The notes beneath the pieces are model-generated. The model did no database searches and was not told the origin of the DNA. It saw only the letters and a list, made by a program, of their open reading frames with translations. DNA of 64,000 bases from Fidelibacterota bacterium. Lineage in GTDB: Bacteria; Fidelibacterota; UBA8477; JABMPR01. The stretch is from assembly GCA_016845065.1 (NCBI GenBank), contig JAERTG010000142.1:62001-126000 (forward strand), read 5' to 3'. Shown in pieces: positions 45,025 to 62,072 of the stretch; position 1 is the stretch's first letter; every line of letters begins with the position of its first letter. A program made the position numbers and the translations under genes.

Positions 45025-45501
45025 TTATTCAATATTATTAGTGAATCCATTTTTGAGCAGATACAGCTTCATTTCTTCAAAATCTGAAAAAAATTCTGTT
45101 GTGCATCCAACGATCCAGGAAGACACTTTTTCCAGGGGCATTCCCAATACGAGATAGACAGGCATCTTATGCTCATAGGCAAGCGTGAGTTCGCCGTGAG
45201 TCCCACCTCCCTGAATAACATGCTCATCCCATAAACAGATAACAGCATCACATTTTCCAAGGAGCTGTGCTAAATCTCGGTCAATAATTTTTTTGATAAC
45301 TGGCCTAAATCGTTTAATATCAACACTTTTCCACTGTCGGAAGTTATCCTTCTCTTCTTGAGTTAAAAAGTCCTGCTCGTGTTGTGAGGGATCGAATACA
45401 TCGATACTAAATTGACTATCCAGGAATTGTGCTATCTCAGCTCGCCAGACCTTGCCATCATCTGGGGCTGCTTCAATAGCCCCAGCTAAATAGATTTTCA
45501 A
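45025..45501 (-). CDS. Nucleoside 2-deoxyribosyltransferase-like protein
   Basis: A 158-residue protein resembling the nucleoside 2-deoxyribosyltransferase-like/DUF4406 group. The fold signature is KIYLAGAIEAAPDDGKVWR at the start, a central IIDRDLAQLLGKCDAVICLWDE, and GGGTHGELTLAYEHKMPVYLV, where the Glu of GELTLA would be the nucleophile. The physiological substrate is unknown; many relatives are DNA- or nucleotide-linked hydrolases. Its start overlaps the ABC permease stop by four bases (ATGA), so it is co-translated with the exporter genes. Confidence 0.7.
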   Translation of the reverse strand: MKIYLAGAIEAAPDDGKVWRAEIAQFLDSQFSIDVFDPSQHEQDFLTQEEKDNFRQWKSVDIKRFRPVIKKIIDRDLAQLLGKCDAVICLWDEHVIQGGGTHGELTLAYEHKMPVYLVLGMPLEKVSSWIVGCTTEFFSDFEEMKLYLLKNGFTNNIE

Positions 45502-46256
45502 CTATCTCCATCCAGGTGAAAAAACGTTGCTGAAAGCCAGATTAGGAAGGTTGTCTCTATTAAGCAGATCAATAAAAATCCATAATCTATCATACCATTA
45601 AGAAAGGCAATGTCCAATCCTGCCATCCAATTGTAAGGGGGCAAGTAGAAGGCGATTTCGGCAAATTTGTCCATTGGTGCGCCTTTGGTAAGGAATAATC
45701 CACTGATCATCATTATGGGGAGAAGCCCAATATAGAGTAGCTTGCTCAGGCTGTCAACATGCTTGGCAAGCAAACCAATTATCTTGCTCAGGGCTACAAT
45801 TTGGAATGCTCCCAACAAGATGAAAACAATACTGGCTTGGAAATTTATAGCCGCAAAAGACATCTCAGTTACAAATGCCAGAATGGCCCAAACAACACCA
45901 AGATGTGTGAATCCTTTTGCCAGACTAATTATCCCCTGGGCAATAAAGAATGAAGGTTGCCTATGAAAGCGACCCATTTCATAGAGGCTTGCCATGCCAT
46001 TACTCCTCTGCGTCTCCCAGTAAAACCGTGCCGTCGTTTCATAAATCGTGATAAGCAAGGTTAAGAGTAATGAGTCCAGAACCAGAGCTGGCATGACAGC
46101 TACCATTTCTGATTTTGATAAAAGTGACTTATACGGAAGAAAAAACATAAAAAAGAAAATTAAACCTGTAAGAACAGGCATGAGGCCCATGGTGGTAAAC
46201 TGACGTTTATAAATGGTCAATTCGCGGTGCCAGAGAGCAGCTAATACGTTATTCAT
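45498..46256 (-). CDS. ABC-2-type transporter permease
   Basis: A 252-residue inner-membrane protein with six hydrophobic segments, as in ABC-2 exporters: TTMGLMPVLTGLIFFFMFF, VMPALVLDSLLLTLLITIY, GFTHLGVVWAILAFVTEM, ASIVFILLGAFQIVALS, LLYIGLLPIMMISGLF, FLLICLIETTFLIWLSATF. It starts inside the end of the ATPase gene (8-base overlap), so the two form one exporter. The loop ETTARFYWETQRSNGMASLYEMGR lies where the coupling helix that contacts the ATPase is found (parts only). The cargo is unknown. Confidence 0.8.
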   Translation of the reverse strand: MNNVLAALWHRELTIYKRQFTTMGLMPVLTGLIFFFMFFLPYKSLLSKSEMVAVMPALVLDSLLLTLLITIYETTARFYWETQRSNGMASLYEMGRFHRQPSFFIAQGIISLAKGFTHLGVVWAILAFVTEMSFAAINFQASIVFILLGAFQIVALSKIIGLLAKHVDSLSKLLYIGLLPIMMISGLFLTKGAPMDKFAEIAFYLPPYNWMAGLDIAFLNGMIDYGFLLICLIETTFLIWLSATFFHLDGDS

Positions 46257-47175
46257 GCATCGCCTCCGCTTTGATCATCCGCTTAAAGATGTCAGACAGG
46301 GCCGGTAAACGAGGTGTGGCCTCCACAACCCTTTCATGGAAGAGGGCAGTTATTTGCTCAGGAGGAATGTCCACCTCAGTAATGATTTCATAGTGATTTC
46401 CTTGAACTGTATAGGAAACCACGTGGGGAGACGCATCCAGAATGTTGAAATCCCTTTCATGAGTTTCTGATAGGATGAGGTCCAGGATACGATTTTCACG
46501 CTCCGTTTCTTTCAATTCCTTAAGAGTCCCATCTGCAACCAGTCGGCCATCATCCAGAATTGAAATTCGATCAGCCAGACGTTCAACCTGATCAATATTG
46601 CTGGACACCATAACTGTAGTGAATCTTAGTTTTTGTTCGCGGAGAAAGGCCTCCATGAGTTCCTTGCACCCCTGATCCAGGGATGCTGTAGGTTCATCCA
46701 GGAGGAGAATGGATGGATTGTGCAAAACAGCACGGATGAATTCCATCTTCCTACGGGTTCCATAACTTACTTCTCTTGGAAAGGCGTGTAAACTATCTGC
46801 CACCTCAAAACGTCGGACAAATCCAGAGATTCGATTTATCAAATCCGCCTGGGCAATCCCGTGCAGTTTCCCGTGTAAAGTCAGGTTTTCCATCAGGGTA
46901 AGCGATTGCTCAAAACGACTGTCCTGAGACATATATCCAATCTGATGACGGATTTGATTTTGCCTAGCGCCTAGATTAAGACCGTTGATATAGCCTGAGC
47001 CAAGTGTTGGGGCGCACAAAGTTGCGATTACTCTCAGCAAGGTGGACTTGCCAGAACCTGTTGTCCCGATAAGGGCATGGATATGCCCTTTTTCAACACC
47101 CAGTGTTACATTGTTTAATGCTGCCTTCTCATCATATTTTTTGATGATATTTCTCAGCGTAATTGAAACGGCCAT
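46249..47175 (-). CDS. ABC transporter ATP-binding protein
   Basis: A 308-residue ATPase of an ABC-2 exporter. Walker A GTTGSGKS (37-44), Q-loop GYMSQDSRFEQSL, an unusual signature VSYGTRRKMEF in place of LSGGQ, Walker B ILLLDEPTASLD, and an H-loop region altered to MVSSNIDQVERLAD, lacking the usual histidine. The C-terminal 80 residues form a domain (RDFNILDASPHVVSYTV) common in drug/polysaccharide exporter ATPases. The ASN in place of the H-loop His and the changed signature suggest altered ATP hydrolysis. It starts 42 bases after the membrane-protein cluster, on the same strand. Confidence 0.85.
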   Translation of the reverse strand: MAVSITLRNIIKKYDEKAALNNVTLGVEKGHIHALIGTTGSGKSTLLRVIATLCAPTLGSGYINGLNLGARQNQIRHQIGYMSQDSRFEQSLTLMENLTLHGKLHGIAQADLINRISGFVRRFEVADSLHAFPREVSYGTRRKMEFIRAVLHNPSILLLDEPTASLDQGCKELMEAFLREQKLRFTTVMVSSNIDQVERLADRISILDDGRLVADGTLKELKETERENRILDLILSETHERDFNILDASPHVVSYTVQGNHYEIITEVDIPPEQITALFHERVVEATPRLPALSDIFKRMIKAEAMHE

Positions 47176-47217: not shown

Positions 47218-48060
47218 CTAACCGGTCACTTTCTTGTCACCCTTAATGGTCCAAACTGCCAGCAGTCCAATCATTAGCAGCAAGACCCAGAGTGAGGCAT
47301 AATTATATGTTGAAGTACCATAGCTGATGAGATCAGTGAACCGTCCAATCAGCAAGGAGATACGACCCATGACAGCAAAGCCAAATGATGCACCAAAGCT
47401 GATCATGAGGAAATAAATTCCAACTCGTGTTACCTTGCCAAAAGCTCCGCTGTGCTCCTTGGAAAAATAGAAATACAGTAAACCGGTAATCGTACCCACT
47501 AAAATGATAAGATTGTTGAAAACACTTACCCCTGTGAGACTAAAGAAAGGCATATCAACAAATGATACTGCAGTCCCTTTTATCTGACCGAGCACATTTG
47601 AATTTAGAAACGCATATGCCCTAAGTCCCGCTGCCATACCAACTGTGTAGGCAATACCCAGACGTGCCATCCAACTCAATTTTGAGGAGACACTAAGCAA
47701 CATCATGATACCCAGTACAAACGGAAGGATATAGATGAAATGTGGATCATGACCATGACCCTTATCTATACCCCCCTCAGGAAATACACTTGGTAAAACA
47801 AAACCAAAGATATTGTATATCCCATACCAGGTTTTCATGAAGAAACCTGAAATAGCTCCATCAGGGGTTGGCCACAAACGACCAAACAGATTTGGTTGAA
47901 TTTGCGTCCAGAAAAACATGGACATCCAGTAACCAGCAGAAACACCGACAAATACGTGTTCAGCGATCTTATAAAATGGATTATCCTTGTACAAATAGGA
48001 AAAAATACCAAGGGTTAGAAAGACTGCTACCCATGCTCCAAAAATTTCAGAACCATTCAT
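47218..48060 (-). CDS. Polytopic membrane protein of unknown function (GlmL cluster)
   Basis: A 280-residue protein with seven to eight hydrophobic segments (IFGAWVAVFLTLGIFSYLY, GVSAGYWMSMFFW, FIYILPFVLGIMMLLSV, LGIAYTVGMAAGLRAYAFL, VFNNLIILVGTITGLLYFYF, YFLMISFGASFGFAVMG, LWVLLLMIGLLAVWTI). A periplasmic or cytoplasmic loop carries GGIDKGHGHDPH, with three histidines that could bind a metal. I recognise no family. It is the last of the seven genes before the ABC exporter. ATG 48060 follows GGAGACTGGAAT. Confidence 0.65.
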   Translation of the reverse strand: MNGSEIFGAWVAVFLTLGIFSYLYKDNPFYKIAEHVFVGVSAGYWMSMFFWTQIQPNLFGRLWPTPDGAISGFFMKTWYGIYNIFGFVLPSVFPEGGIDKGHGHDPHFIYILPFVLGIMMLLSVSSKLSWMARLGIAYTVGMAAGLRAYAFLNSNVLGQIKGTAVSFVDMPFFSLTGVSVFNNLIILVGTITGLLYFYFSKEHSGAFGKVTRVGIYFLMISFGASFGFAVMGRISLLIGRFTDLISYGTSTYNYASLWVLLLMIGLLAVWTIKGDKKVTG

Positions 48061-48071
48061 ATTCCAGTCTC

Positions 48072-48917
48072 CTAATATTTCTTGGAACGTCGTCGTTCAA
48101 CAAAGAACGAGATGTTTCCGAAAATGATAAATGCTACGATGACGATATGAGCAACGGACTGGGCATCCATACCGCTGGTACCAATCCCAGCCTGTCCGAT
48201 GAGGGACTCATATTCAGCTGCACCAGGCATACCACCAAGTATTCCCTTGATCTGTCCCGATTGGACATAGGGCATCACTTCATTTACTTGAATGGAGGTG
48301 GTCCCTGTGCTCATTGTGATCCCAACTGGATCAGCAGCATACTGAACCCATTCAACGGTACCAGGATAGCCTGCTGAGGCCGAAAACAAATAATCAAAAT
48401 CAGCAACCTGATTGATGCCGTCCATCATAGGGATGTCGTCAAGGAAGTTGCCATTGGCATCGACTGTGAAGACCTTCCGAAGATTACTAACCAGTCCCTT
48501 GATTACCGCCTCATTACCAGGTCTGAACCCGAGCAGCACATAATCTTCACCATATTCTTTACCATATTGATCCTCAGCAACCTGCTCAAGAGCCTCCATG
48601 GCCATAAACTGACCGTCCGGCCATAGGCATGTTACATATACCTTTACATCTTTTTCAAACAGATGACGTAAAAGTCCAACCGCCATGGGATGAATTTCAG
48701 GCTTGGTACTGGGACCATATTCGAAGGATACCAGGGCTTTGTCACCTGCATTGAGCTCTTCTACAACATCGTAAACTGTCTGAGAAGCAATTGTAGGTCT
48801 GATAGGTAGACCCAAGGGGAAGAAAAGTGGCAGCATCACAACAAGGGCAATAACCAAGAAGATATAACGTCTATCTAAGCCACCGGCACGAACGATTAAA
48901 TCTAAGAATTTTTCCAT
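48072..48917 (-). CDS. Bitopic membrane protein with large periplasmic domain (GlmL cluster)
   Basis: About 281 residues. An N-terminal helix (YIFLVIALVVMLPLFFPLGL) and a C-terminal helix (VAHIVIVAFIIFGNISFFV) flank about 210 soluble residues with an alpha/beta appearance (DKALVSFEYGPSTKPEIHP, VKVYVTCLWPDGQFMAME, EDYVLLGFRPGNEAVIKGL, ILGGMPGAAEYESLIG). No catalytic motif is recognisable; a conserved-looking EYGPSTKPE and LGGMPGAAEYE are candidates. The start is ATG 48917 because GGAGA is six bases away; ATG 48923 sits directly on it. Function unknown. Confidence 0.65.
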   Translation of the reverse strand: MEKFLDLIVRAGGLDRRYIFLVIALVVMLPLFFPLGLPIRPTIASQTVYDVVEELNAGDKALVSFEYGPSTKPEIHPMAVGLLRHLFEKDVKVYVTCLWPDGQFMAMEALEQVAEDQYGKEYGEDYVLLGFRPGNEAVIKGLVSNLRKVFTVDANGNFLDDIPMMDGINQVADFDYLFSASAGYPGTVEWVQYAADPVGITMSTGTTSIQVNEVMPYVQSGQIKGILGGMPGAAEYESLIGQAGIGTSGMDAQSVAHIVIVAFIIFGNISFFVERRRSKKY

Positions 48918-48919
48918 GA

Positions 48920-49948
48920 TCATTCTCCGATGTATGATTTTTCAATTCCCAGGATATAGCGAATTGAAGTTGCGAAGATACCAAGACCAATACCAATCAT
49001 GATAGCACGAGCCCCTGCCACATTTGGATTATTGTATATCCAGTCTTGCAAAACTGGGAGATAAAAGATACCAGGTTGATCAACTGGCCACCCAGTAATA
49101 AAACCTGCAATGGTCACCAGGAGGACTCCCCCACCGACTGTGGCCAAAGTATAGGTTCGATTCTTGAACCAGGTATTCACACCAGCTCCTATACTCAAAA
49201 CGACGATGTACATGATAAACCAGGCAGAGATATTCCCGCCAATGGGAACTCTACCAAGCATAATGATGATTCCAGATACCAACAGCAGGGTTGCTTCAAA
49301 ATTGCGGATTTTGAATGCCCGATACGAGGCTGAAGCTACAAAGAAGGCCAATAACGCAAACATCGTTGCCGAAAGTGGAGTGAAAATAAATCTAAACATC
49401 CAGTTAAAAAGTGATCCGCGGGTGGAAATATGCGAACCCCACTCAGTGGCACGCATGTTCGCAGTACCCCCAGCGGCATTAATTTTATCTACGACATTCT
49501 CAGCACCACCTCTCGTGAAGTAGGGTGCCTCAATTGTGTAGGTGTCTCCTTCGGGCATTGCCAGTAGAATGTTCTCAGTGCTCTTCTCATCGAGATTAAT
49601 CTCACTGGCTAAAACCGTGGCAACCTTGGCAGGATTATCATACTGGCTTATTTCCACGTTATACGAGCCCAAGAGGATAAACCCGGCTGTGAATGAAAAA
49701 GTGAAACCAACGATGGCAAGCGCGGCGTAGGGCCAACCCTTCTGTTGCTTCATTACTTTCATAGCCTGGAGTTTGAGTAGATTTAAGGCACCTAGAAAAA
49801 TGGCAAAACTCGCAAGGATGTCAAACCATTGTGTAGCATCATCATCAACAAATGATTTAATGCTTGGTTCATCTACAAACCAGCCAAAGAGCGTTATAAA
49901 ACCAATAATGGCCGCGATGGCAATGGGTAGTTGTCTTTTCATGAACAT
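48920..49948 (-). CDS. Polytopic membrane protein of unknown function (GlmL cluster)
   Basis: A 342-residue protein with about eight hydrophobic segments: one or two N-terminal (LPIAIAAIIGFITLFGWFV, ILASFAIFLGALNLL), IVGFTFSFTAGFILLGSY, then a soluble loop of about 90 residues (VATVLASEINLDEKSTENILL) before further helices (FTPLSATMFALLAFFVASAS, LLLVSGIIIMLGRVP, AWFIMYIVVLSIGAGVNTWF, LATVGGGVLLVTIAGFITG). No family recognised. GGAGGAATATT precedes ATG 49948; the end overlaps the next upstream-facing start region by a few bases. It should work with its neighbours as one membrane complex. Confidence 0.65.
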   Translation of the reverse strand: MFMKRQLPIAIAAIIGFITLFGWFVDEPSIKSFVDDDATQWFDILASFAIFLGALNLLKLQAMKVMKQQKGWPYAALAIVGFTFSFTAGFILLGSYNVEISQYDNPAKVATVLASEINLDEKSTENILLAMPEGDTYTIEAPYFTRGGAENVVDKINAAGGTANMRATEWGSHISTRGSLFNWMFRFIFTPLSATMFALLAFFVASASYRAFKIRNFEATLLLVSGIIIMLGRVPIGGNISAWFIMYIVVLSIGAGVNTWFKNRTYTLATVGGGVLLVTIAGFITGWPVDQPGIFYLPVLQDWIYNNPNVAGARAIMIGIGLGIFATSIRYILGIEKSYIGE

Positions 49949-49958
49949 AATATTCCTC

Positions 49959-50822
49959 CTATTGGACCGTCAGGTATCCCAGGATATCCCAAGAGATCCA
50001 ACCCAGGTCATGAAAAAAGTTAAAGATTAAGGAGATAATAATAGTGGCAGTAACTAACAGTTTCAGAGTATCCTGTCCTTTTACTCCGCCAATCAGTTCG
50101 GGTTCTTGAGAGAGATAAGCACTCGCTGCAAAAAATTCTTCACCAATTAGTGTATAGTCACAGGCCGTCACAAAAAATGGAATTTGTGAAGGAGAAGCGG
50201 TACCAGCTATCTGGATAGCACCAATGGAGTTACCAGTTTCAGCCAATAGCAACGATTCTGCATAAAATTTTCCCATATAAAGGCAGGCTGCAGGTTCTTC
50301 GCGGAGCATAATCCCATTAACTCCAGCAGCGTAAGCAAATTGATCATCTGTGAGATAGTGAACCATATCATCATGAAACAAATCTGGACGACCCTCCAAG
50401 AGATAGGATTCGCGACAGGATTCCCTGGCCGCCTTCATCACAATAGCACGTGAAACCGGAACGTTTAAACTGGTCTCATAGCGGGCTGTCATCTTGGCCA
50501 CGTGACCAAGTACAACGACTCCTGCAACAGTTTCAACTTGATCCATATCCATAATTCCTGGAACATAGAGTACAGGTTTCCCCATTTCAGTGGAACGCCC
50601 AACAGCTTCTTCCACGGCTTTTAAACCGGGAATAGTACGCAGGAATATCTTCTCTCCTCTTTGTGCCATGCGGGTTGAATAGATCAACACACCACCCACA
50701 ATAAGGATTGACCAAAACATGACACCACGTTCGGAGACAAAATAAGGATGTCCCGCAAACCAGTAAATCATGAATAGGACGAAGATGGTACCGGCAACAG
50801 ACCAGAATTGTTTATCTTTCAC
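49959..50822 (-). CDS. DUF6754-like membrane protein (GlmL cluster)
   Basis: About 287 residues. Two N-terminal helices (FWSVAGTIFVLFMIYWFAG, GVMFWSILIVGGVLIYSTR) lead into a cytoplasmic alpha/beta domain with GKPVLYVPGIMDMDQVETVAG, RAIVMKAARESCRESYLLEGR, LREEPAACLYMGKFYAESLL and IGAIQIAGTASPSQIPFFV, and a C-terminal helix (LLVTATIIISLIFNFF). I recall similar proteins as DUF6754; the name is unverified. No function is known to me. The start is GTG 50822, behind GGAGAAG, and overlaps the previous stop by 11 bases; ATG 50870 gives a longer form. Confidence 0.65.
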   Translation of the reverse strand: MKDKQFWSVAGTIFVLFMIYWFAGHPYFVSERGVMFWSILIVGGVLIYSTRMAQRGEKIFLRTIPGLKAVEEAVGRSTEMGKPVLYVPGIMDMDQVETVAGVVVLGHVAKMTARYETSLNVPVSRAIVMKAARESCRESYLLEGRPDLFHDDMVHYLTDDQFAYAAGVNGIMLREEPAACLYMGKFYAESLLLAETGNSIGAIQIAGTASPSQIPFFVTACDYTLIGEEFFAASAYLSQEPELIGGVKGQDTLKLLVTATIIISLIFNFFHDLGWISWDILGYLTVQ

Positions 50823-51105
50823 TGTGCTTCTCCGTTTGTTTGTTTTTATGTTCTTCTTCCAGTTGCTCAAGTCTTGAGATTAGTCTTTCAACATTACTCG
50901 GTTCTTCAAACAACTCGGCGGCTTTATAATAACCATCGGCCTTAATAAAGGCGCTAATCATCGGTCCAAAAAATATCATGGTATGGCTACCTAACAAAGC
51001 TAAAGGTTTAACCATTTCCAATGCAAAGACTGCGGCTGTTATAAAACCACTGTCATATATTCGGTTTGCAATTCTCTCAATGAAGGCCAGGTCTTCGGTT
51101 GACAA
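50812..51105 (-). CDS. Small helical protein (GlmL cluster)
   Basis: A 97-residue protein. The first two thirds hold a hydrophobic helix or helical hairpin (ITAAVFALEMVKPLALLG, MIFFGPMISAFI), the last third a charged coiled-coil-like helix (NVERLISRLEQLEEEHKNK). It may attach peripherally to the membrane proteins beside it. The predicted start is TTG 51105; an ATT at 51138 is in frame and no Shine-Dalgarno clearly decides. Its end overlaps the DUF6754-like start. Confidence 0.55.
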   Translation of the reverse strand: MSTEDLAFIERIANRIYDSGFITAAVFALEMVKPLALLGSHTMIFFGPMISAFIKADGYYKAAELFEEPSNVERLISRLEQLEEEHKNKQTEKHSER

Positions 51106-51133
51106 TGATGATGAATCTGCAGTTTCCGTTGTC

Positions 51134-52261
51134 TTAATCAGTTTCGACCATCTCCAGATTAGCTCGAGGGATGACCATCACCTGATCGTCGATCTTTATT
51201 TCAGCTACGCGAACCATGGTCTCGGATTCCATCTTCTGCAATTCAGGTGGCAAAGAAACAACCGTTCCAATCCGACCAAAATATGGTGCACGAATAACCC
51301 TTACCAGGCTGCCGGCCTGTATACCCTCATTGATTTGAATGGCGTGGACATCACCCTTGATATCTTCCGGGTTCAATGGAATGACTATCTCGGGGCGAAT
51401 AACTCCTGCTCTAATCTGAGTAGCACCATTGATGGATGTAAATTTTCCATCGTGCTCCTTTAAGAGATCAAAGGTTCTCGATCCCATACGGATTTCACCA
51501 TAGCCCTCTGTAAGAACGAGAGAGGTCACCAGATCTTCGGATCCAGTGATGGCAACACCAAGTGTGTACCCTAGAATTTCTTCAAGATCGAAGTAGTTAA
51601 ATCCTCCCACGACAACGCCAGCTACTTTCATACTCAAAGCTTTATTATAGGCTGCAAGGCTTATAAATGATCCGCCTACCAGAACTTTGCCAGCATGTTC
51701 TGGTTTGATCATATCTGCAGTGAGCTCATCCTCGCGAGTTTCAGTCACCACGACAAGCTCTCCCCTGCTCTCACCACCAATTCCAAAAATCCCCTGGATG
51801 AAGACTGCCTCGGTTTCAATGACCACACCTTCTTCAGGTACGACCTCTGCAACAACACCACGGATGTAGGCATCTACCTCAACAGGAATTGGGGCATCAC
51901 GGAGAACAACCTGACCAGTAATTGAGGAAATGGATTCCAGTGTACAGTCTATAGGAGCTACCACATTGGATTTAAAGAATCCGAAGAGACCTTTGGTTTC
52001 AGCAATCAATTCACCCTTTTTGAACTCAGAACCAATTGGCTTCTGCATCACTGCTTCCACATCTGTAGGATCTATGTTCAATAAATTACCTACATTTATC
52101 ATCTGTACATTCCCAGGTAGATGAGTGCGGGCAACGATGTCATCGGGAGTGACCGAAGCTTTTGCTTCAACAATCACATCCCCCTTCAGAGGTAAAATTC
52201 TATCTTTCTGTACTTTGGTTTCGTGGAGGACTTTTAGTCCGGGAGTATATGAATGGGCCAT
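51134..52261 (-). CDS. Barrel-sandwich/KOW-type protein of unknown function (GlmL cluster)
   Basis: A 375-residue soluble protein. The N-terminal third has two hammerhead/barrel-sandwich-like segments (KGDVIVEAKASVTPDDIVAR, FGFFKSNVVAPIDCTLESIS) like those in RnfC, NqrA and lipoyl-type domains. A central alpha/beta domain contains GIFGIGGESRGELVVVTE and VGGSFISLAAYNKALSMKVA. The C-terminus (GSLVRVIRAPYFGRIGTVVSLP, then VMVIPRANLEMV) is KOW-like, a fold that binds RNA or ribosomal partners. I recognise no whole-length family. It begins 3 bases after the GlmL-like stop, so it is tightly coupled to that ATPase. Confidence 0.65.
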   Translation of the reverse strand: MAHSYTPGLKVLHETKVQKDRILPLKGDVIVEAKASVTPDDIVARTHLPGNVQMINVGNLLNIDPTDVEAVMQKPIGSEFKKGELIAETKGLFGFFKSNVVAPIDCTLESISSITGQVVLRDAPIPVEVDAYIRGVVAEVVPEEGVVIETEAVFIQGIFGIGGESRGELVVVTETREDELTADMIKPEHAGKVLVGGSFISLAAYNKALSMKVAGVVVGGFNYFDLEEILGYTLGVAITGSEDLVTSLVLTEGYGEIRMGSRTFDLLKEHDGKFTSINGATQIRAGVIRPEIVIPLNPEDIKGDVHAIQINEGIQAGSLVRVIRAPYFGRIGTVVSLPPELQKMESETMVRVAEIKIDDQVMVIPRANLEMVETD

Positions 52262-52264
52262 GAT

Positions 52265-54106
52265 CTATGCTCCTCCCAGTAATTCTGTGTCCGGGTATTC
52301 ATTGGTAGCCTTGGACCACTTGTTCAAGTTCTCGATTCGCTTTGACTTCTCATTGCTCAATTCAAAGGGTCGACCTCGACCATCAAAAATGAGTCCAACG
52401 GTTCCACCGTATATGTCCGTTACATGGGACTCACCCTTATCCTTACCAATCGACATCGATTTAGAAGGTGTCAATTTGGCTTTAATTGGTTCATAAGGTG
52501 CAGGCATAACAATAATTTCACCCTGCTTCAGCTCTACAACTTTTTTGCCTTCGCCTGGAAGCTCAAATTCTGCTGTCAAAATGACTGACCCCGGTTTTGG
52601 CTTACCAACGGGAGCGATACAGGTGCCTAGACGTATTAAACAATCCTTTTCAAATACTTCAACCGCAGCCTTCCTGGCATCTTCGGCCATCTCATCATTT
52701 TCAATATTCGCCATAACACCCAGCTGAGGCATCATAAAGATTGAATCAACTGCCAATTGTGTTATTCCCTCAGGAACAAAGGCATCAATCATCATGCGCA
52801 TGGCCTGCTCTCTTCGTGGAGCATGTGATAACACACCTCCAGAGCCAACGAGCAGATCTAAATCCATCATATCCACCAGCGTTTCCCCTGAGCCAGACTG
52901 ATCAAATGCATCGGAAATGGTTCTCTCCTGCTGCACACCCTTCAGACTCACTGCAAATGCCTTATGTTGAATAAAAGACAGACGGAGAGCTTCCCTGGCA
53001 ATAGCTTGTTCAATGATAAGTTCTTCTAGCGACTGAGGAACGGTTGTAGGTCGGATCATTTTGTTACCAATCCGATTGGTAAGTGTACCTTCATCGATAT
53101 CGATGGGAACCCAACGCAAGACGTTATCCAAAGTGGCTTCAGCCAGAACATTACACACCGAATAACTCATACCCAGATTGGCACTTACCGTTCGATTGAA
53201 TTGTCCCTGGAATACAGAAAAGATATCCGTTGTTGCGCCACCGATATCCACTCCAACAACTGAAATATTTTCCTGCCTGGCGACCATTTCAATCAGGGAA
53301 CCAACAGCTCCTGGCGTTGGCATGATAGGCGCATCTGTCCATGACATCAGCTTTTTATAACCTGGTGCCTGGGCCATGACATGCTCCATAAACAGGTCAT
53401 GGATCTTGTCTCGTGCTGGTCCAAGATTCTCTACTTCAAGTACGGGTCGAATATTTTCTATCAGATCTAAATCGGTAATCTCACCCAAAGTTTCAGCAAT
53501 ACTTTCTTGAGCTTTGGTGTTACCAGCATAGATAACAGGAAGCTTGTAATTCTGTCCAAGTCGAGGTTTTGGGTTCGCTGCTGCTAAAATTTCAGCCAAC
53601 TCGACAACGTGGGACACAGTACCACCATCAATACCACCGGATAACAGAATCATATCGGGACGTAGCTGACGAATACGCTCAATTTTTTGATGGGGAAGTC
53701 TACCGTCATTTGAAGCTAGAACATCCATTACAATGGATCCAGCACCCAGAGCAGCACGTTCAGCACTCTCACCCGTCATCGCCTTGACAACCCCGGCAAC
53801 CATCATCTGTAATCCGCCGCCTGCGGATGAAGTAGAGACATAAACATCAACGCCAGTACTGTCATCTCTCATGGGATGTATGATTTGATCACCATCCAAT
53901 ATTTTTAATCCCGAAAGCTCTTCAACTTCCATGATAGCATTGAGCACACCCTTGGTGACGTCTTCAAAGGGAGCTTCAACAGTTGTAGGAGCTTCTCCCC
54001 TTGTTTTTAAACGATAGCCCTGATCTGTCAATTCGATCAGGATAGCTTTGGTTGTGGTTGACCCACAATCTGTTGCCAGAATAGTTTTAAGTTTGTTACC
54101 AGCCAC
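52265..54106 (-). CDS. GlmL/MutL-type ASKHA ATPase (glutamate mutase-associated family)
   Basis: A 613-residue protein of the MutL/GlmL family, ASKHA-fold ATPases named for their place between the two subunits of adenosylcobalamin-dependent glutamate mutase. Two phosphate loops are visible: ATDCGSTTTKAIL at the N-terminus and VGVDIGGATTDIFSVF near residue 300; also LLSGGIDGGTVSHVVELAE, IYAGNTKAQESIAETLG and LVGSGGVLSHAPRREQAM. It lacks any mutase neighbour: no B12-binding DxHxxG protein and no epsilon subunit is in the window. Here it heads seven tightly packed genes of membrane and barrel proteins, so it may energise or assemble that complex. The start is GTG 54106. Confidence 0.85.
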   Translation of the reverse strand: MAGNKLKTILATDCGSTTTKAILIELTDQGYRLKTRGEAPTTVEAPFEDVTKGVLNAIMEVEELSGLKILDGDQIIHPMRDDSTGVDVYVSTSSAGGGLQMMVAGVVKAMTGESAERAALGAGSIVMDVLASNDGRLPHQKIERIRQLRPDMILLSGGIDGGTVSHVVELAEILAAANPKPRLGQNYKLPVIYAGNTKAQESIAETLGEITDLDLIENIRPVLEVENLGPARDKIHDLFMEHVMAQAPGYKKLMSWTDAPIMPTPGAVGSLIEMVARQENISVVGVDIGGATTDIFSVFQGQFNRTVSANLGMSYSVCNVLAEATLDNVLRWVPIDIDEGTLTNRIGNKMIRPTTVPQSLEELIIEQAIAREALRLSFIQHKAFAVSLKGVQQERTISDAFDQSGSGETLVDMMDLDLLVGSGGVLSHAPRREQAMRMMIDAFVPEGITQLAVDSIFMMPQLGVMANIENDEMAEDARKAAVEVFEKDCLIRLGTCIAPVGKPKPGSVILTAEFELPGEGKKVVELKQGEIIVMPAPYEPIKAKLTPSKSMSIGKDKGESHVTDIYGGTVGLIFDGRGRPFELSNEKSKRIENLNKWSKATNEYPDTELLGGA

Positions 54107-54154: not shown

Positions 54155-55189
54155 TTATTGTTTCAGACGAGGATCCAATGCATCTCGTAAACCCTCACCG
54201 ACAAGATTATAAACAGTCACAGTAATAAATATTGCTAATCCCGGAAAGGTAGTTAACCACCAACCTGTTGGGAGCGTATCCCTTGCACTACTAAGCAGGG
54301 ATCCCCAGGTCGCCTGCTCAGGAGGTGCTCCAAAACCAAGAAAACTAAGCCCAGACTCAATCAGAATTGCAGCAGCTACACCAAAGGTTGCTGTTACGAG
54401 GACAGGTGTCAAAGTATTAGGTAATACGTGTCTGAAAATAGTACGAAAGTCCCTGTATCCCAGTGCTTTAGCTGCTACCACATAATCCTCATTTTTGACT
54501 TTCAAGAATTCACCCCGAGTGAAACGAGCTACTCCCGTCCAGCCAGTCAGGCCCAATATTATCATGATATTGATAATAGACTGGGTCTCCATCACTGCAA
54601 CGATGGTAATAATGAGAAACATGCGGGGAAAAGTAATCATAATTTCAATCATTCGTTGAATGATGATATCTATTACCCCTCCATAAAAACCTGCTAACGC
54701 TCCCAGGATGACACCAATGAAAACATAGATGGCTACTGCTACAAATCCCACCAATAGACTCACACGAGCACCATGAATCATTTGAGACAGTACATCTCGA
54801 CCTAACTCATCCGTTCCAAATATATGAGCCCGGCTGGGCGGTTGCAGTTTTACCTTAAGATTATACTCAGTTGATGAATAAGGAATCACAGGATAAATGG
54901 CCCAGTCCCCTTCTTCATATTTTTCCTCTAGAATCTTAAACTGCTGACTCTTAAAGGCATCCTGCCAATTCATACCAAACCATTTTACACCGTACTCCCT
55001 GAATACTGGAAAGTAGGTGTTGCCTTCATATCTCATAACAATGGGCTTGTCATTCGCCAGGAAATCAGCGAATATGAAGACAAAAAGCAGGACATAAATG
55101 ATATGTAAAGACAGAACTGCCAACTTGTTCTTGCGGAACTGTGAGCCGACAATCTGGGAATAGGTGCGTGCTGGTGCCATCTCTGACAT
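54155..55189 (-). CDS. Oligopeptide-type ABC transporter permease (DppC/OppC/YejE-like)
   Basis: A 344-residue inner-membrane permease. It has the OppC-type N-terminal helix, a periplasmic loop of about 85 residues with IFGTDELGRDVLSQMIHGAR, and the binding-protein-dependent permease core ending in the EAA loop AAKALGYRDFRTIFRHVLPN and ESGLSFLGFGAPPEQATWG. The long first loop resembles YejE of the microcin C/peptide importer. It starts one base inside the stop of the partner permease (TAATG). Its ATPases are not in the window, so they must be supplied from elsewhere. Confidence 0.9.
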   Translation of the reverse strand: MSEMAPARTYSQIVGSQFRKNKLAVLSLHIIYVLLFVFIFADFLANDKPIVMRYEGNTYFPVFREYGVKWFGMNWQDAFKSQQFKILEEKYEEGDWAIYPVIPYSSTEYNLKVKLQPPSRAHIFGTDELGRDVLSQMIHGARVSLLVGFVAVAIYVFIGVILGALAGFYGGVIDIIIQRMIEIMITFPRMFLIITIVAVMETQSIINIMIILGLTGWTGVARFTRGEFLKVKNEDYVVAAKALGYRDFRTIFRHVLPNTLTPVLVTATFGVAAAILIESGLSFLGFGAPPEQATWGSLLSSARDTLPTGWWLTTFPGLAIFITVTVYNLVGEGLRDALDPRLKQ

Positions 55190-56574
55190 TAGCGCTTCTC
55201 CTCAAACGTAATTCGTGGGTCAACTACGGCGTATAATAAATCTGATAGTAAGATGCCTGACAGAGTCAGCATGGCTGAGATCGTGGTTACTGCCATAATG
55301 ATTGGATAATCACGGAACAGGACAGCATTAAAACTCAATTGCCCCATCCCGGGAATAGAGAAAATAGACTCAATAATAATTGAACCCGAAATGGCCAGTG
55401 GCAACAGGTTCGCCAGCATGGTGATAATTGGGATCAGAGAGTTTCTAAGCGCATGTTTATAGGTCACTGTACGCTCACTGAGACCCTTGGCACGAGCTGT
55501 TCGAATGTAGTCTTGCCTGATCACTTCCAGCATGGATCCACGCATATACCGTGATAGCGCAGAAAAAGAACCATAGGTCCAGATAATTAGGGGAAGCGCA
55601 ACGTGATGTCCAAGATCTAGCAGGTATTCCCAGGTACTCATGTCCTCTGCTCCAAGACTATGCAGACCTGTTACAGGGAAGACATCCCAGAAATCGCCAC
55701 CACCAAAAAAGACAATGGCCATGGTAGCTACCCAAAAGTTAGGTAGAGAATAAAGGATAAATAGAATAACTGTGGTAACCTTATCCCCTGTAGAGTATTG
55801 ATGGGTCGCAGAATAAATGCCCAGGGGTATAGCAATCAAATATGCGAGAATGAATGAGGTTAGAGTAAAGATCAGAGATACTGGTACACTTTCTTTAATG
55901 TGATCCCAGACGGGTCGATTGTCCTTGATGGATGTTCCAAAATCAAGGGTGATCATATTGACTAACCAGCGTGGGTATTGAGCATCTGTGAAAATCTTCT
56001 TAAATTTTTGAAATCCTGTGAATTGGTAACTGTCTCTGGCTGCATTACGAACAACTCCTGTTGAGTCCGTTCCACCATACCACCAGTTCTGAATGTATTC
56101 CAGTTGCTTCTCTACACTCATTTCTGCACTAATACTCAGCTTCTGTTTGATAGTCAGAATTTCGAGTACAACCGTGGTCTCATCTTCTGTAAGGTCGGCA
56201 GATTCTAGCAACCCAACCAGAAACGGCACGGCCACTTCGTCGGCTTGCTTAATCGGTTCAACAATATCATCGTAGTCCCTACCGCTAAGCTCCTGACCCT
56301 CAGCAAGATAGTTCTCGACAGCCTCCCAGTTGCCTTCAACATTGAAAATGACGAAATTAAGTAAGAGTGGCTTGTCAAGACCGTAGATTTCACGGGTCTG
56401 TTCAATGACTTGCTTGGCAAGATTCTGATCTGAAGACATACCAGATTGCTGATTACCCATTTTGAAGGCTGTTGGATCACCAGGGGCAAGCTTGATAATG
56501 ATAAAGGTAATGATGGATATCCCAAAAAGGGTTGGGAAGATCAAGAGAATACGTTTGAGGAAGTAGCGCCACAT
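55189..56574 (-). CDS. Oligopeptide-type ABC transporter permease (DppB/OppB/YejB-like) with a helical periplasmic insert
   Basis: A 461-residue permease. The N-terminus RYFLKRILLIFPTLFGISI and APGDP motif are those of OppB/DppB, and the EAA loop is RTARAKGLSERTVTYKHALRN. Ordinary members have about 310-340 residues; here about 125 extra residues (about 80-205) between TM1 and TM2 form an alpha-helical, HEAT-like segment (DDIVEPIKQADEVAVPFLVG, LTEDETTVVLEILTIKQ). The start is ATG 56574, which overlaps the binding-protein stop by one base; the frame upstream of it lies within that gene. It pairs with the downstream permease. Confidence 0.88.
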   Translation of the reverse strand: MWRYFLKRILLIFPTLFGISIITFIIIKLAPGDPTAFKMGNQQSGMSSDQNLAKQVIEQTREIYGLDKPLLLNFVIFNVEGNWEAVENYLAEGQELSGRDYDDIVEPIKQADEVAVPFLVGLLESADLTEDETTVVLEILTIKQKLSISAEMSVEKQLEYIQNWWYGGTDSTGVVRNAARDSYQFTGFQKFKKIFTDAQYPRWLVNMITLDFGTSIKDNRPVWDHIKESVPVSLIFTLTSFILAYLIAIPLGIYSATHQYSTGDKVTTVILFILYSLPNFWVATMAIVFFGGGDFWDVFPVTGLHSLGAEDMSTWEYLLDLGHHVALPLIIWTYGSFSALSRYMRGSMLEVIRQDYIRTARAKGLSERTVTYKHALRNSLIPIITMLANLLPLAISGSIIIESIFSIPGMGQLSFNAVLFRDYPIIMAVTTISAMLTLSGILLSDLLYAVVDPRITFEEKR

Positions 56575-58421
56575 TATGAGGATTCTCCCACCATTGAAGT
56601 ATTCCGCCACCAGCTATACAACTTGTAGCCAGGACGAATAGGAATCCATTTTACACCATGGAATTCTTTCAGGTAAGCACCAGGATCGCGTTGGTAAAAC
56701 ATGAATGTGTATGGTTGCTCCTCATGAAAAATTTCCTGTAAGCGGAAATACATGGCATTTCGCTTTTCTTTATCCATCTCAAATCGAGCGGTCTCAATAA
56801 GCGAATCAGCTTCAGCATGTCGGAACCCCATATAATTCGAGCCTCGATCTCCAATGTTATCTGAATGCCAGATCTGATATGGATCAGATTCCAGCCCACC
56901 AATCCACAACAGGGACACAACATCAAACTGGCGATCTCGTAGATTTTCAACATAAACTGACCACTCTAACTGCCTGATATTCACTACAATACCAACTTTA
57001 CGCAAATCTTCTTTCAACATGAGCGCCATGTACTTGGAACTTGTTGATCCTGCAGATACCGAGAAAGTAAAACTAAATGGTACCCCATCCTTATCACGAA
57101 TACCATCACCATCATGATCTATCCAACCAGCTTCCTCAATGAGCTCCACTGCCCTGACGGGATCATAGGGCCACCGCTCTATATTGTGGTTGTATTGTTC
57201 ACCATATATATAGAAAGGTCCAATGGTTGGAATCCCTAAGCCATAGGACACATACTTATTATACGAATCCCTGTCAATGAGCATGGTCATAGCCTGCCTT
57301 ACACGTTTATCACTGAAATAGGGTTTATCATTGTTCCAGCCGATGTAGCTGTATGCAGGCACTACATAGCTTACCTTCTGGTATTTTTCCAGAAAGTCAG
57401 GTGTGTTGGTCTGAGTGAAATACTGAACCGCCCGCATACGAGGAATAAAATCAATTTCGCCTGCTTTTAGAGCTGTCAGACGTGCTGTGGCATCAGAAAT
57501 GACCTTTACAATGACCTTTTCTAGATAGGCACCCTCATCAGAGTAACTTTTGATATAGGTAGAGTCATCATTCCAATAATCATCATTTCTAACATAGGAC
57601 ATATAATCGCCAGTGATCCATTTATCGAAACGCCAGGGACCTGATCCAATGATGGGTTCAGCGTCCTCTCCAACGGGTCTCCCCTGGGGATGTGTATTAA
57701 AGGCATCTGCAAATTCTTTTATGGCAGCTTCTTCACGTGTAACCGATGTGTTCAAGAGATCTTCAACCGTATATCGATCCAACAATCCCTTTGGATCCCA
57801 GACATGTTTGGGAATAATATGAAATCCACCAAGAATTTCCTGATTTCTGAAATAGGTCTCAGAACTGGTGATGATAAACTCATTTTGCTCATTGATTCTG
57901 GCACTAACCACTTTAGAAAAGGAGCTGCGCATGGGCGCGCAATCTACAAAGGGATTAAGGACAGCCTTGATGGAAAACAGTACATCCTCCGCCGTAAGTG
58001 GCTGGCCATCATGCCAGTAGGCGTCTTCTCTAATCTTAAAAGTAAAAGTATATCCATCCTCGCTGATGTGAAAGCTCTCAGCCAGCAGCGGACGATCAAA
58101 GCGCCATGTTTCGTAGTCATAATCCAACAGAGTTTCATAGATGTAGTCAAGTACTCTTGTGGCAGCAGCTGAAGTTGAAGTATAGGTGTTCAGGTGTTCC
58201 GGTTCAGCAGATTCAGCCAACACCAGGGTTCCACCTTCGGAGGGCTCCAAATTCTGAGGACTACTTTCAAAAACAGTCTGGTCACCTGTAAGGTCGACTC
58301 TCACTCCCCCAGCATTGCCTAATTCATCATCATCAACATTCTCAACGCTTCGTAAACCCAAATTGGCAAAAATGATCAGAAGGATCAGAATGGAGAATTG
58401 AATAAGAAAAGATTTTTTCAT
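56574..58421 (-). CDS. Family 5 extracellular solute-binding protein (peptide/YejA-like)
   Basis: A 615-residue periplasmic binding protein for peptides or nickel-type ligands. A signal peptide (FLIQFSILILLIIFANLGLR) is followed by a linker and the SBP_bac_5 domain: ESFHISEDGYTFTFKIREDA, YWHDGQPLTAEDVLFSIKAV, GPWRFDKW, ALKAGEIDFIPR, VRQAMTMLIDRDSYNKYVSY and FDVVSLLWIGGLESDPYQIW (parts). The length fits the YejA-like group. It starts immediately after the cdsA stop with no gap and its stop overlaps the OppB start, so the uptake genes are co-translated. No paired ATPase is in the window. Confidence 0.9.
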   Translation of the reverse strand: MKKSFLIQFSILILLIIFANLGLRSVENVDDDELGNAGGVRVDLTGDQTVFESSPQNLEPSEGGTLVLAESAEPEHLNTYTSTSAAATRVLDYIYETLLDYDYETWRFDRPLLAESFHISEDGYTFTFKIREDAYWHDGQPLTAEDVLFSIKAVLNPFVDCAPMRSSFSKVVSARINEQNEFIITSSETYFRNQEILGGFHIIPKHVWDPKGLLDRYTVEDLLNTSVTREEAAIKEFADAFNTHPQGRPVGEDAEPIIGSGPWRFDKWITGDYMSYVRNDDYWNDDSTYIKSYSDEGAYLEKVIVKVISDATARLTALKAGEIDFIPRMRAVQYFTQTNTPDFLEKYQKVSYVVPAYSYIGWNNDKPYFSDKRVRQAMTMLIDRDSYNKYVSYGLGIPTIGPFYIYGEQYNHNIERWPYDPVRAVELIEEAGWIDHDGDGIRDKDGVPFSFTFSVSAGSTSSKYMALMLKEDLRKVGIVVNIRQLEWSVYVENLRDRQFDVVSLLWIGGLESDPYQIWHSDNIGDRGSNYMGFRHAEADSLIETARFEMDKEKRNAMYFRLQEIFHEEQPYTFMFYQRDPGAYLKEFHGVKWIPIRPGYKLYSWWRNTSMVGESS

Positions 58422-59252
58422 CTATAGCCCAACAACAAATATTAAATATAAATAACTCAAAGGCGCAGAGAACAATATGGAATCAAAACGATCCCAAGCT
58501 CCCCCGTGCCCAGGTAAAAGATTTGATGAATCTTTTACGCCTACATCCCTCTTTACCAGGGATTCAGCAAAATCACCAAGTTGCCCACCAACACCAGCAA
58601 TCAAACCTAAAATCAGGGCATCAATATAATCGAGTCCTGGTAACCAGCCAGCCCACACAATAATGACGATGGCGATCAAAGCGCCGATCAAACCGGAAAT
58701 GGATCCTTCCCAGCTTTTATTTGGACTTACCCGAGGAAAAATTTTGTGTTTGCCAATAGCTGAGCCAATAAGGTAGGCCAGGGTATCGCATGTCCAGACC
58801 CCGATGAAAACGGTCAGGACTGCATATCCTCCCAGGTGCCCTCCTTGCCCTTCAAAACCCAATTGTTGTAGCAAAATAAAGTACGACATGGCTAGCGCAA
58901 TAAAAGTCGCAGCGAAAAGTGTAGAGGCGACATTCTCCAATACATGGGATTTTTTCCGAAACATTTCCCAGGTTAAAATGAGGAGAACGGCAACAATCAA
59001 AATCGCTCCCAAATGCTTACCGTCCATAAGGAGATGATCACCAACAAGGCTAAGGTACAGGAAATAACCAAGCCAGACATTGGGCTCAGTACCATTTGGA
59101 CGCAACATCCGATGAATTTCCCCAAGTATAAGCAAACCAACGATTGTGAAAATTACCATAAAAATATCGTGAGTATAGAGGGTGATCCCAATGAGAGCAG
59201 GGATACCAATTATGACTACAGGGGCGCGTTTTATAATATTTGTCAATGACAT
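58422..59252 (-). CDS. cdsA: Phosphatidate cytidylyltransferase
   Basis: A 276-residue integral membrane enzyme that makes CDP-diacylglycerol from phosphatidate and CTP, the branch point of phospholipid synthesis. About eight hydrophobic segments. The family signature SLVKRDVGVKDSSNLLPGHG followed by GAWDR is complete, and the earlier SPNKSWEGSISGL is also conserved. Its stop abuts the start of the peptide-binding protein with zero spacing, and 95 bases separate it from the TPR lipoprotein. Linkage to peptide uptake has no obvious functional logic. Confidence 0.93.
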   Translation of the reverse strand: MSLTNIIKRAPVVIIGIPALIGITLYTHDIFMVIFTIVGLLILGEIHRMLRPNGTEPNVWLGYFLYLSLVGDHLLMDGKHLGAILIVAVLLILTWEMFRKKSHVLENVASTLFAATFIALAMSYFILLQQLGFEGQGGHLGGYAVLTVFIGVWTCDTLAYLIGSAIGKHKIFPRVSPNKSWEGSISGLIGALIAIVIIVWAGWLPGLDYIDALILGLIAGVGGQLGDFAESLVKRDVGVKDSSNLLPGHGGAWDRFDSILFSAPLSYLYLIFVVGL

Positions 59253-59347
59253 ATTAGAGCGCTGAAATTATTGGGCGCCCCCCCAAACACCAACATGTTT
59301 TCGGCAAATGGTAATATTATCCGTTAGGAGCAAGAAATGGGAGTGTT

Positions 59348-61330: not shown

Positions 61331-62072
61331 GGAATTCCTCATAGAGTTGTGGCATAATAAGACCGGCCTCCTGGCGCACACTAATGTCTGCTAGGTGACT
61401 AAATGGTGTCGGTTCTGGATTAATTTCAATAACAAAAGCACCCTGTGACTGAGCCTCGACAGGCAGTTGGGCTGCCGGATAGACCTGAGCTGAGGTTCCA
61501 ATACTGAACATCAGATCACAGCGCTGGACAGCTTCAAAAGCGGCATTGATGGTTCCCAGTGGTAAGGATTCGCCAAACCAGACCACATCGGGTCTAACCC
61601 CTCCTCCACAGGCACATCTGTTTATTATTCTCATTTTCCTTTTAGCTAATTCGATCATTGTTCCGCAGCTATTGCATTTATGACGATGGATGTTCCCATG
61701 CAACTCATAAATGGATCTGTTACCGGCCCGTTCGTGTAGACCGTCGACATTCTGAGTTATTACTACGGAATTACTGAATAGTTTCTGAAAATTACTGATA
61801 GTCCTATGGGCAGCGTTGGGTTTTGCCTTTTGAATTGCCTCACGTCTGTCCGCGTACCAGTTAAGTACCATAACTGGATTCTCCTGAAAGCCGGTCTGAC
61901 TGGCAAGTTTCATCGGATCATGTTTTGACCAATGACCATCAGGATCACGAAAAGTTGAAATTCCACTTTCAGCTGAGATCCCAGCGCCGGTGAAAAACAC
62001 GACCTGGCTATCTCGATTGAAGCGCTCCATCGGAATTAACTGTTTATTCATAGCATTGAATATAGAAGCCAT
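61314..62072 (-). CDS. Sir2-type NAD-dependent protein deacylase
   Basis: A 252-residue sirtuin that removes acyl groups from lysines using NAD. Motifs: FFTGAGISAESGISTFRD, the Tyr-x-x-Arg pair in NWYADRREA typical of class III (desuccinylase/demalonylase) sirtuins, TQNVDGLHERAG with catalytic His in ELHGNIH, the zinc cysteines CNSC and CACG, and GTSAQVYPAA and EINPEPT. The long spacing between the zinc pairs (KRKMRIINR) is slightly unusual. ATG 62072 has AGGGA close by. It is the first gene of the long minus-strand run and is divergent from marR, sharing the repeat-rich 108-base gap. Confidence 0.9.
   Translation of the reverse strand: MASIFNAMNKQLIPMERFNRDSQVVFFTGAGISAESGISTFRDPDGHWSKHDPMKLASQTGFQENPVMVLNWYADRREAIQKAKPNAAHRTISNFQKLFSNSVVITQNVDGLHERAGNRSIYELHGNIHRHKCNSCGTMIELAKRKMRIINRCACGGGVRPDVVWFGESLPLGTINAAFEAVQRCDLMFSIGTSAQVYPAAQLPVEAQSQGAFVIEINPEPTPFSHLADISVRQEAGLIMPQLYEEFHAQLK

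Follow-up and report, generated by a model that had tools for sequence, protein, structure and literature searches.

A long GlmL-type ATPase encoded with four conserved membrane proteins in many bacterial groups

The ATPases GlmL (or MutL) of glutamate mutase operons and Or-4 of ornithine degradation (NF040745, NF040744, TIGR01319, PF13941) are ~450-475 amino acids (aa) long. Here we describe a member of the same ASKHA family that is ~610 aa long and whose gene heads a set of seven at positions 47218-54106 of the window, by which we mean the whole stretch of 64,000 nucleotides from Fidelibacterota bacterium contig JAERTG010000142.1 (assembly GCA_016845065.1). The phosphate and adenosine motif regions of the long and the shorter proteins align, but the long form has a C-terminal extension and is linked to a soluble protein, K2, and four membrane proteins, M4-M7. 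Given that the ATPase and the four membrane proteins are kept together across many, mostly uncultured bacterial groups, the set probably encodes a membrane machine that has not been described.

Cytosolic actin-like ATPases docked on bitopic and polytopic membrane proteins are found in type IV pili (PilM) and type II secretion (GspL), and FtsA is a further case. The arrangement that we predict for our gene set would share this general plan, and Pfam listed none of these families for the seven proteins at E-values up to 1. M4 is a clear member of DUF6754 (PF20539), which Pfam describes as a domain of unknown function. Members of the K2 family resemble, at the level of domains, the N-terminal barrel-sandwich of RnfC/NqrA and the KOW domain of NusG/Spt5. 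Pfam scans listed no further RnfC/NqrA domain for K2 and placed M4-M7 in no Rnf/Nqr family, so we do not class the set as a redox pump of this kind. In the open PubMed Central (PMC) literature, with subscription journals and preprints outside the scope, we found no account of the module or of DUF6754. Judged by title and abstract, PMC4682846 and possibly PMC11633334 are the papers there that concern the GlmL protein.

The gene set and its conservation

The seven genes are open reading frames (ORFs), all on the minus strand:

52265..54106 (-): GlmL, a long GlmL-type ASKHA ATPase of 613 aa, from its PF13941 match
51134..52261 (-): K2, a soluble adaptor-like protein of 375 aa, from domain matches, a structure model and a natural fusion to GlmL
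50812..51105 (-): H3, a small helical protein with one hydrophobic stretch, from the ORF, a 31-sequence alignment and hydropathy
49959..50822 (-): M4, a DUF6754 membrane protein, from PF20539, a structure model and hydropathy
48920..49948 (-): M5, a polytopic membrane protein with ~8 hydrophobic segments, from hydropathy and the 49-sequence alignment A6
48072..48923 (-): M6, a bitopic protein with a ~210 aa domain between two transmembrane (TM) segments, from hydropathy and conserved columns
47218..48060 (-): M7, a polytopic membrane protein with five hydrophobic segments by a simple rule, from hydropathy and alignment A7

GlmL and K2 are 3 base pairs (bp) apart, K2 and H3 28, M4 and M5 10, and M6 and M7 11, while H3 overlaps M4 by 11 bp and M5 overlaps M6 by 4. 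M4 most likely starts at the GTG at 50822, giving 287 aa, a length shared with many Marinimicrobia homologues, and not at the TTG at 50870 of the longest ORF. The source genome is a 4.05 megabase (Mb) draft in 182 contigs, 93% complete, in which PF13941 is single copy. In a promoter and terminator scan, promoter-like matches fell short of the mean for shuffled sequence and terminator-like matches exceeded it by one standard deviation, neither of which is informative. PADLOC returned no defence-system matches for the seven proteins at E-values up to 0.01.

Among 60 relatives in the phylum, DUF6754 was found in 38 (the source genome included), K2 in 41 and MutL above its cut-off in 41. Restricting the count to the 38 well-assembled relatives (completeness 90% or more, contamination 5% or less), M4, K2 and GlmL were each present in 26, and row by row these are the same 26 genomes. 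The module is also kept in genomes of 0.9-1.0 Mb that are reported to be 96-98% complete (G027, G045, G051). In 14 of 16 neighbourhoods chosen among M4 holders, all seven genes are found in one stretch, 12 of them in the order of the window and two (L028, L034) with H3 before GlmL; in L035 and L040, GlmL and K2 are on another contig.

To look beyond the phylum we scanned named genome contigs with an M4 profile, keeping as loci the best 80 of at least 581 relatives. The record titles of these loci include Neomarinimicrobiota, Eisenbacteria, Riflebacteria, Zixibacteria, Phycisphaerae, another planctomycete, WOR-3, Stahlbacteria, Aegiribacteria/Fermentibacteria, Coatesbacteria, Gemmatimonadetes, Acidobacteriota, Methylomirabilis and Caldithrix, and several read just "bacterium". 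In the M4 tree some labels look doubtful: L104 (labelled Methylomirabilis) clusters with Riflebacteria, L075 (Eisenbacteria) with Marinimicrobia, and both L108 and L130 (Zixibacteria) with Coatesbacteria. At 81 of the 83 places where the contig leaves enough room for the count, M5, M6 and M7 come after M4 on the same strand and within 600 bp; for K2 after GlmL the figure is 52 of 53. The position of H3 varies: in 28 loci it separates K2 from M4, in 20 it precedes GlmL, and in six it stands first, ahead of M4. The recurrent whole-module orders are GlmL-K2-H3-M4-M7 (26 loci), H3-GlmL-K2-M4-M7 (10) and M4-M7-H3-GlmL-K2 (4). A WOR-3 chromosome has GlmL, K2 and M4-M7 at separate places, and in the Caldithrix-labelled genome the genes are dispersed, with others between M4, M5, M6 and M7. 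The original prediction of a seven-gene cluster with short gaps or overlaps is confirmed, with spacers of -11 to +28 bp and a corrected M4 start, and the conserved order that it named as a check is found, much more often than chance would allow, in relatives and under about a dozen phylum-level labels.

In 20 other genomes chosen as M4 holders, MutL was matched in 19 (as pieces only in G072 and G073) and K2 likewise in 19, and the WOR-3 and Caldithrix-labelled genomes with scattered genes count among those with both. The phylum group of a Gemmatimonadetes-labelled genome has DUF6754 in 12 of 16 members and that of G062 (Eisenbacteria label) has MutL in 44 of 47, the starting genome being included each time. 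The alignments A3-A9 used 41 of 43, 48 of 79, 49 of 83, 48 of 83, 43 of 78, 27 of 32 and 30 of 48 reference sequences, plus the window protein in each, after the removal of rows that resembled others, of short matches and of sequences containing X. The M4 tree has 74 rows, taking 7 of 34 Marinimicrobia loci and, from the others, sequences with at least 200 aligned residues and few X.

A long GlmL apart from the mutase type, and its probable partner K2

The window GlmL matches PF13941 over residues 9-472 (4e-121, 405 bits against a cut-off of 27), making it a clear member of the family, and extends ~140 aa beyond the Pfam domain at its C-terminus. It is 58-80% identical to 27 others, and 58-68% to those from outside Marinimicrobia. 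The patterns DCGSTTTK, DIGGATTD and SGG.LSHAP, which we take to be the ASKHA phosphate-1, phosphate-2 and adenosine motifs, are invariant across all 28 sequences. Mean column identity is 71% for GlmL versus 36-43% for M5-M7, in samples that differ.

The long GlmL is distinct from the proteins that work with mutases. Its scores for the NCBIfam GlmL, Or-4 and glmL_fam models are 216 (215.8), 202 and 152 bits, below all three cut-offs (475, 600 and 204). G061, labelled Riflebacteria, has three MutL matches, one of them the long form in a 618 aa frame. Of its two short proteins, one of 450 aa, its gene followed by two that look racemase-like by eye, reaches 524 bits for the ornithine-type protein, and one of 475 aa scores 466 bits for NCBIfam GlmL; both miss the equivalog cut-offs and pass that of glmL_fam. 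G068 has one long and one short GlmL. In alignments the short proteins stop before the C-terminal extension, and in a GlmL tree the long forms are split from three short mutase-like proteins with 100/100 support, on long branches. At L131:1480-3916, in a Riflebacteria-labelled genome that also carries the membrane module, a short ornithine-type GlmL is followed by racemase-like genes.

Glutamate mutase E (PF06368) has no match in the source genome, 93% complete as it is, and exceeds its cut-off in none of the 60 relatives, eight other genomes having weak, partial matches below threshold. The source genome does encode proteins with a B12-binding domain (eight matches, five above the cut-off). 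We reject a glutamate or ornithine mutase context for the long GlmL on the NCBIfam scores, the failure to find mutase E, the coexisting short GlmLs and the tree.

K2 has an N-terminal barrel-sandwich hybrid domain (RnfC_N/biotinyl-like), a central beta/alpha domain and a C-terminal KOW/SH3 domain. In Pfam searches of the family with E-values up to 0.5, RnfC_N was found in 34 of 42 members (best 5e-7) and KOW in 18 of 42 (best 3e-5); the window protein itself has only a KOW match below threshold (0.0057) and none to RnfC_N. Its predicted structure is mainly beta (mean pLDDT 88), and a Foldseek search with this model found NusG (3e-4, probability 0.80) and Spt5 KOW5 (probability 1.00), with query TM-scores so low (0.12-0.16) that only the small KOW domain is matched. 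For the central part there is a weak resemblance to ZNRF3-ectodomain and RraA-type domains.

G062 and G069, which carry different phylum labels, each have a paralogue (of 991 and 1046 aa, respectively) in which one ORF joins a GlmL domain to K2-like domains (L155:2424-5399, minus strand, and L156:1824-4964, plus strand), in addition to separate GlmL and K2 genes. This fusion suggests that GlmL and K2 act as one unit. Very long branches lead to the short and the fused sequences in the GlmL tree, which leaves the position of the fused ones uncertain. Further second MutL matches in long frames of 848-984 aa occur in the phylum group of G062 (G097, G100, G102 and two in G104). At L168:5136-8074 on the minus strand there are scattered K2 fragments, apparently a decayed copy.

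The original prediction that the cluster lacks glutamate mutase holds for mutase E, which was not found in the genome, with mutS covered only through the general search for B12-binding domains. Its placing of GlmL with the membrane genes and not with a mutase is supported by co-occurrence, by the GlmL-K2 fusion and by genomes that carry extra, shorter, mutase-like GlmLs.

Membrane proteins, repeated sets and neighbouring genes

The small protein H3 has the conserved patterns KPLxxxGSQ and FFGPI in 31 sequences. M4 matches DUF6754 at 1.8e-112, and its structure model (pLDDT 90) has two N-terminal TM-type helices, a Rossmann-like alpha/beta domain, which by inference is cytosolic, and a C-terminal TM-type helix. 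In other phyla M4 has an N-terminal extension with an Fn3-like look by eye, for which Pfam gave no match at E-values up to 0.01 in five extended proteins. In M6, R18 and R19 are invariant, among other conserved columns, and by the positive-inside rule its ~210 aa domain is probably periplasmic. Pfam and NCBIfam matches for H3, M5, M6 and M7 were below threshold or none. Profiles of K2, M4, M5, M6, M7 and GlmL (H3 was not searched) found no convincing solved relative by sequence, the best E-value being 0.08, and a comparison of the M4-M6 profiles showed no relation. A third-copy M5 at L097:14638-16413 (plus strand) contains an inserted array of FG-GAP repeats of several hundred residues (Pfam 4e-28), a domain type that one would expect to be extracytosolic.

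Two or three M4 genes were found in 16 of the 80 named loci, mostly as whole M4-M7 sets, either in tandem or on either side of GlmL-K2, and many of these loci are from Zixibacteria. In the Zixibacteria-labelled tandem arrays, copies 1, 2 and 3 each belong to a different clade of the M4 tree, in which some inner forks are weakly supported, and each copy is closer to the genes of other phyla than to its sister copies. The separate clades indicate that the M4-M7 sets diverged early and retained their order. No locus has more than one GlmL-K2 pair, and G070, with three sets in L113, has yet only one MutL match and one K2 match. On a Coatesbacteria chromosome (L120:13177-20402), GlmL is split in two, with an inverted block of K2 and M4-M7 between the pieces; the inversion may be real or may come from an error in assembly. 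Genome G065 (L165) has K2 and two M4-M7 sets with no MutL match, and the stretch around K2 holds some N.

The window has transporter genes on both sides of the module, 48 bp from GlmL (dppC) and 42 bp from M7 (ABC ATPase):

54155..58421 (-): dppC, dppB and a peptide-binding protein, outside the module, from ORFs and an SBP_bac_5 match
45498..47175 (-): a DrrA-type ABC ATPase and an ABC-2 permease, outside the module, from Pfam and NCBIfam scans

The original prediction hinted that these importer and exporter genes belong with the module, which we do not find to be a general rule. In loci with room, dppC adjoins GlmL in 6 of 13 unnamed relatives, 1 of 19 named Marinimicrobia loci and none of 16 outside Marinimicrobia. 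An OppD-like ATPase follows M7 in 3 of 16 unnamed relatives, 7 of 28 named Marinimicrobia loci and none of 33 outside, by a motif rule on ORF ends that can miss truncated ones (L059 is a likely miss). SBP_bac_5 is without a match in ten of the 38 relatives that carry DUF6754 (G027, G031, G037, G040, G044, G045, G048, G050, G051, G053), so the importer is not needed, and 11 of the 12 module-negative well-assembled relatives do have one. On this phylogenetic profile and the neighbourhood counts we rejected a peptide importer as an obligate partner. Relatives of the ABC-2 permease were found only in L036, L038, L041 and L042 of 96 loci scanned, and we rejected the exporter as a part of the module.

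In L054:3617-4513 and L051:11748-12659, the gene immediately after M7 encodes an OppD-like ABC ATPase, and nothing else in the locus matches dppB, dppC or a binding protein. In L086, L090 and L104, a binding-protein-like gene and two Opp-like ATPase genes precede M4, with no dppB or dppC match in view. This Riflebacteria-type operon ahead of M4-M7 (L086:1126-8972, L090, L104) also has pilin-like proteins, recognised by eye, and a Wzy_C/TPR protein (Pfam, L086).

Other neighbours are specific to certain groups. Several Marinimicrobia loci have RlpA-, diacylglycerol kinase- and CdsA-like genes (by eye) upstream of GlmL. In the window, CdsA-like and TPR lipoprotein-like proteins are encoded upstream at 58422-61381 (minus strand), and similar ones are near the module in 24 and 17 loci of Marinimicrobia. 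ExbB-, ExbD- and TonB-like genes follow the module in WOR-3, Stahlbacteria and Fermentibacteria-type loci (by eye, with a TonB receptor confirmed by Pfam in L107). The four clusters concerned occur in 11, 8, 8 and 7 loci, and because none of these is from Marinimicrobia we do not regard TonB/ExbBD as a general partner. DUF4388/PATAN-like proteins (by eye) are found in WOR-3 close to K2 and directly after M7 (L166:8110-8601, L099:12865-13731). The common thread of the neighbours is the cell envelope, no more.

A possible ATP-driven membrane complex and its alternatives

We believe, with confidence that is evenly balanced, that a shared cytosolic GlmL-K2 ATPase unit powers or remodels an inner-membrane complex of the four proteins M4-M7, a reading built on sequence and gene context. 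Conservation of the genes together points to a physical complex, which would be heteromeric, with M5 and M7 as its polytopic parts, M4 presenting its Rossmann-like domain to the cytosol and the M6 domain and the variable inserts facing the periplasm. H3 would be a small link, probably membrane-associated. In this predicted arrangement GlmL would bind ATP in an actin/Hsp70-type cleft and, via the barrel-sandwich, beta/alpha and KOW domains of K2, would act on M4 in the cytosol, the putative coupling to ATP being that M4-M7 then change state and move or remodel something across or at the inner membrane. More tentatively still, the module may be an ancient ATP-driven inner-membrane machine of about ten phyla, in which one long GlmL-K2 unit serves one or several four-protein complexes, and which would form a class outside the ABC, TonB, secretion and redox-pump types.

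Several observations weigh against this reading. The module is absent from 12 of the 38 well-assembled relatives, and among the M4 holders G065 has M4 and K2 with no MutL match found, and G066 has M4 and GlmL with no K2 match. L095, L097 and L103 show no H3 in their GlmL-K2-M4 stretch, and no genome-wide search for it was made. M5-M7 have no convincing match to any transporter or secretion family; the sole hint of a transporter fold is a weak TMD0_ABC likeness in 10 of 49 M5 members (best 2e-6, and 0.073 for the window protein), which we take as a likeness of membrane helices. A Foldseek search with the M4 model gave no match at 0.001, the best being a Moco carrier protein at 0.016; SIS-domain, UspA and generic Rossmann folds were also among the 50 rows shown, and we used these matches for fold class only. 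Neither GlmL-K2 fusion has H3 or M4-M7 beside it in the 8 kilobases examined, so that the fused unit may serve another partner. Lastly, the GlmL of mutase operons is described as a reactivating chaperone (PMC4682846), and a role of that type does not need energisation of a membrane.

A chaperone role is the basis of an alternative that we consider rather unlikely, though well worth keeping in mind, in which GlmL-K2 only assembles or repairs M4-M7, like mutase GlmL, and does not power a working cycle. At most one GlmL-K2 pair is found beside several M4-M7 sets, as a chaperone would predict, but the conservation of GlmL and its tight linkage exceed what we would expect for an assembly factor. 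It is very doubtful that the long GlmL has kept the task of reactivating a B12-dependent enzyme whose gene lies elsewhere, with its position among membrane genes being historical. The homology to GlmL and the B12-binding domain proteins in the genome are in line with such a role, but mutase E was not found, the tree places the three mutase-like GlmLs apart from the long form (on long branches), two Riflebacteria-type genomes carry both kinds, and the fusion partner is K2 and not a B12 protein.

The KOW domain raises the question of whether the module binds RNA, RNA polymerase or the ribosome and couples transcription or translation to the insertion of membrane proteins or exported proteins. 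NusG is the best Foldseek match of K2 and Spt5 KOW5 was matched with full probability, but given the low TM-scores over a single small domain, the fact that KOW/SH3 folds are common and that no obvious Sec gene is among the first 45 recurrent neighbour clusters, we think this improbable. Somewhat similarly, the dppC and OppD-like neighbours and the Opp-like genes before M4 in L086, L090 and L104 would fit a module that works with oligopeptide ABC importers in peptide uptake, but with both neighbour counts at zero outside Marinimicrobia and the SBP_bac_5 profile running against it, this too has little probability.

Returning to the GlmL-K2 unit and M4-M7, the marker gene M4 is on hundreds of contigs from many phyla. 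In the sample of genomes outside Marinimicrobia, GlmL remains 58-68% identical to that of the window, and the set is kept in genomes of ~1 Mb, yet we found no functional account of it. In annotation, the long GlmL in these phyla should not be counted as evidence for glutamate fermentation. If the module is indeed an ATP-driven machine of the envelope, it would add a kind of membrane energy coupling.

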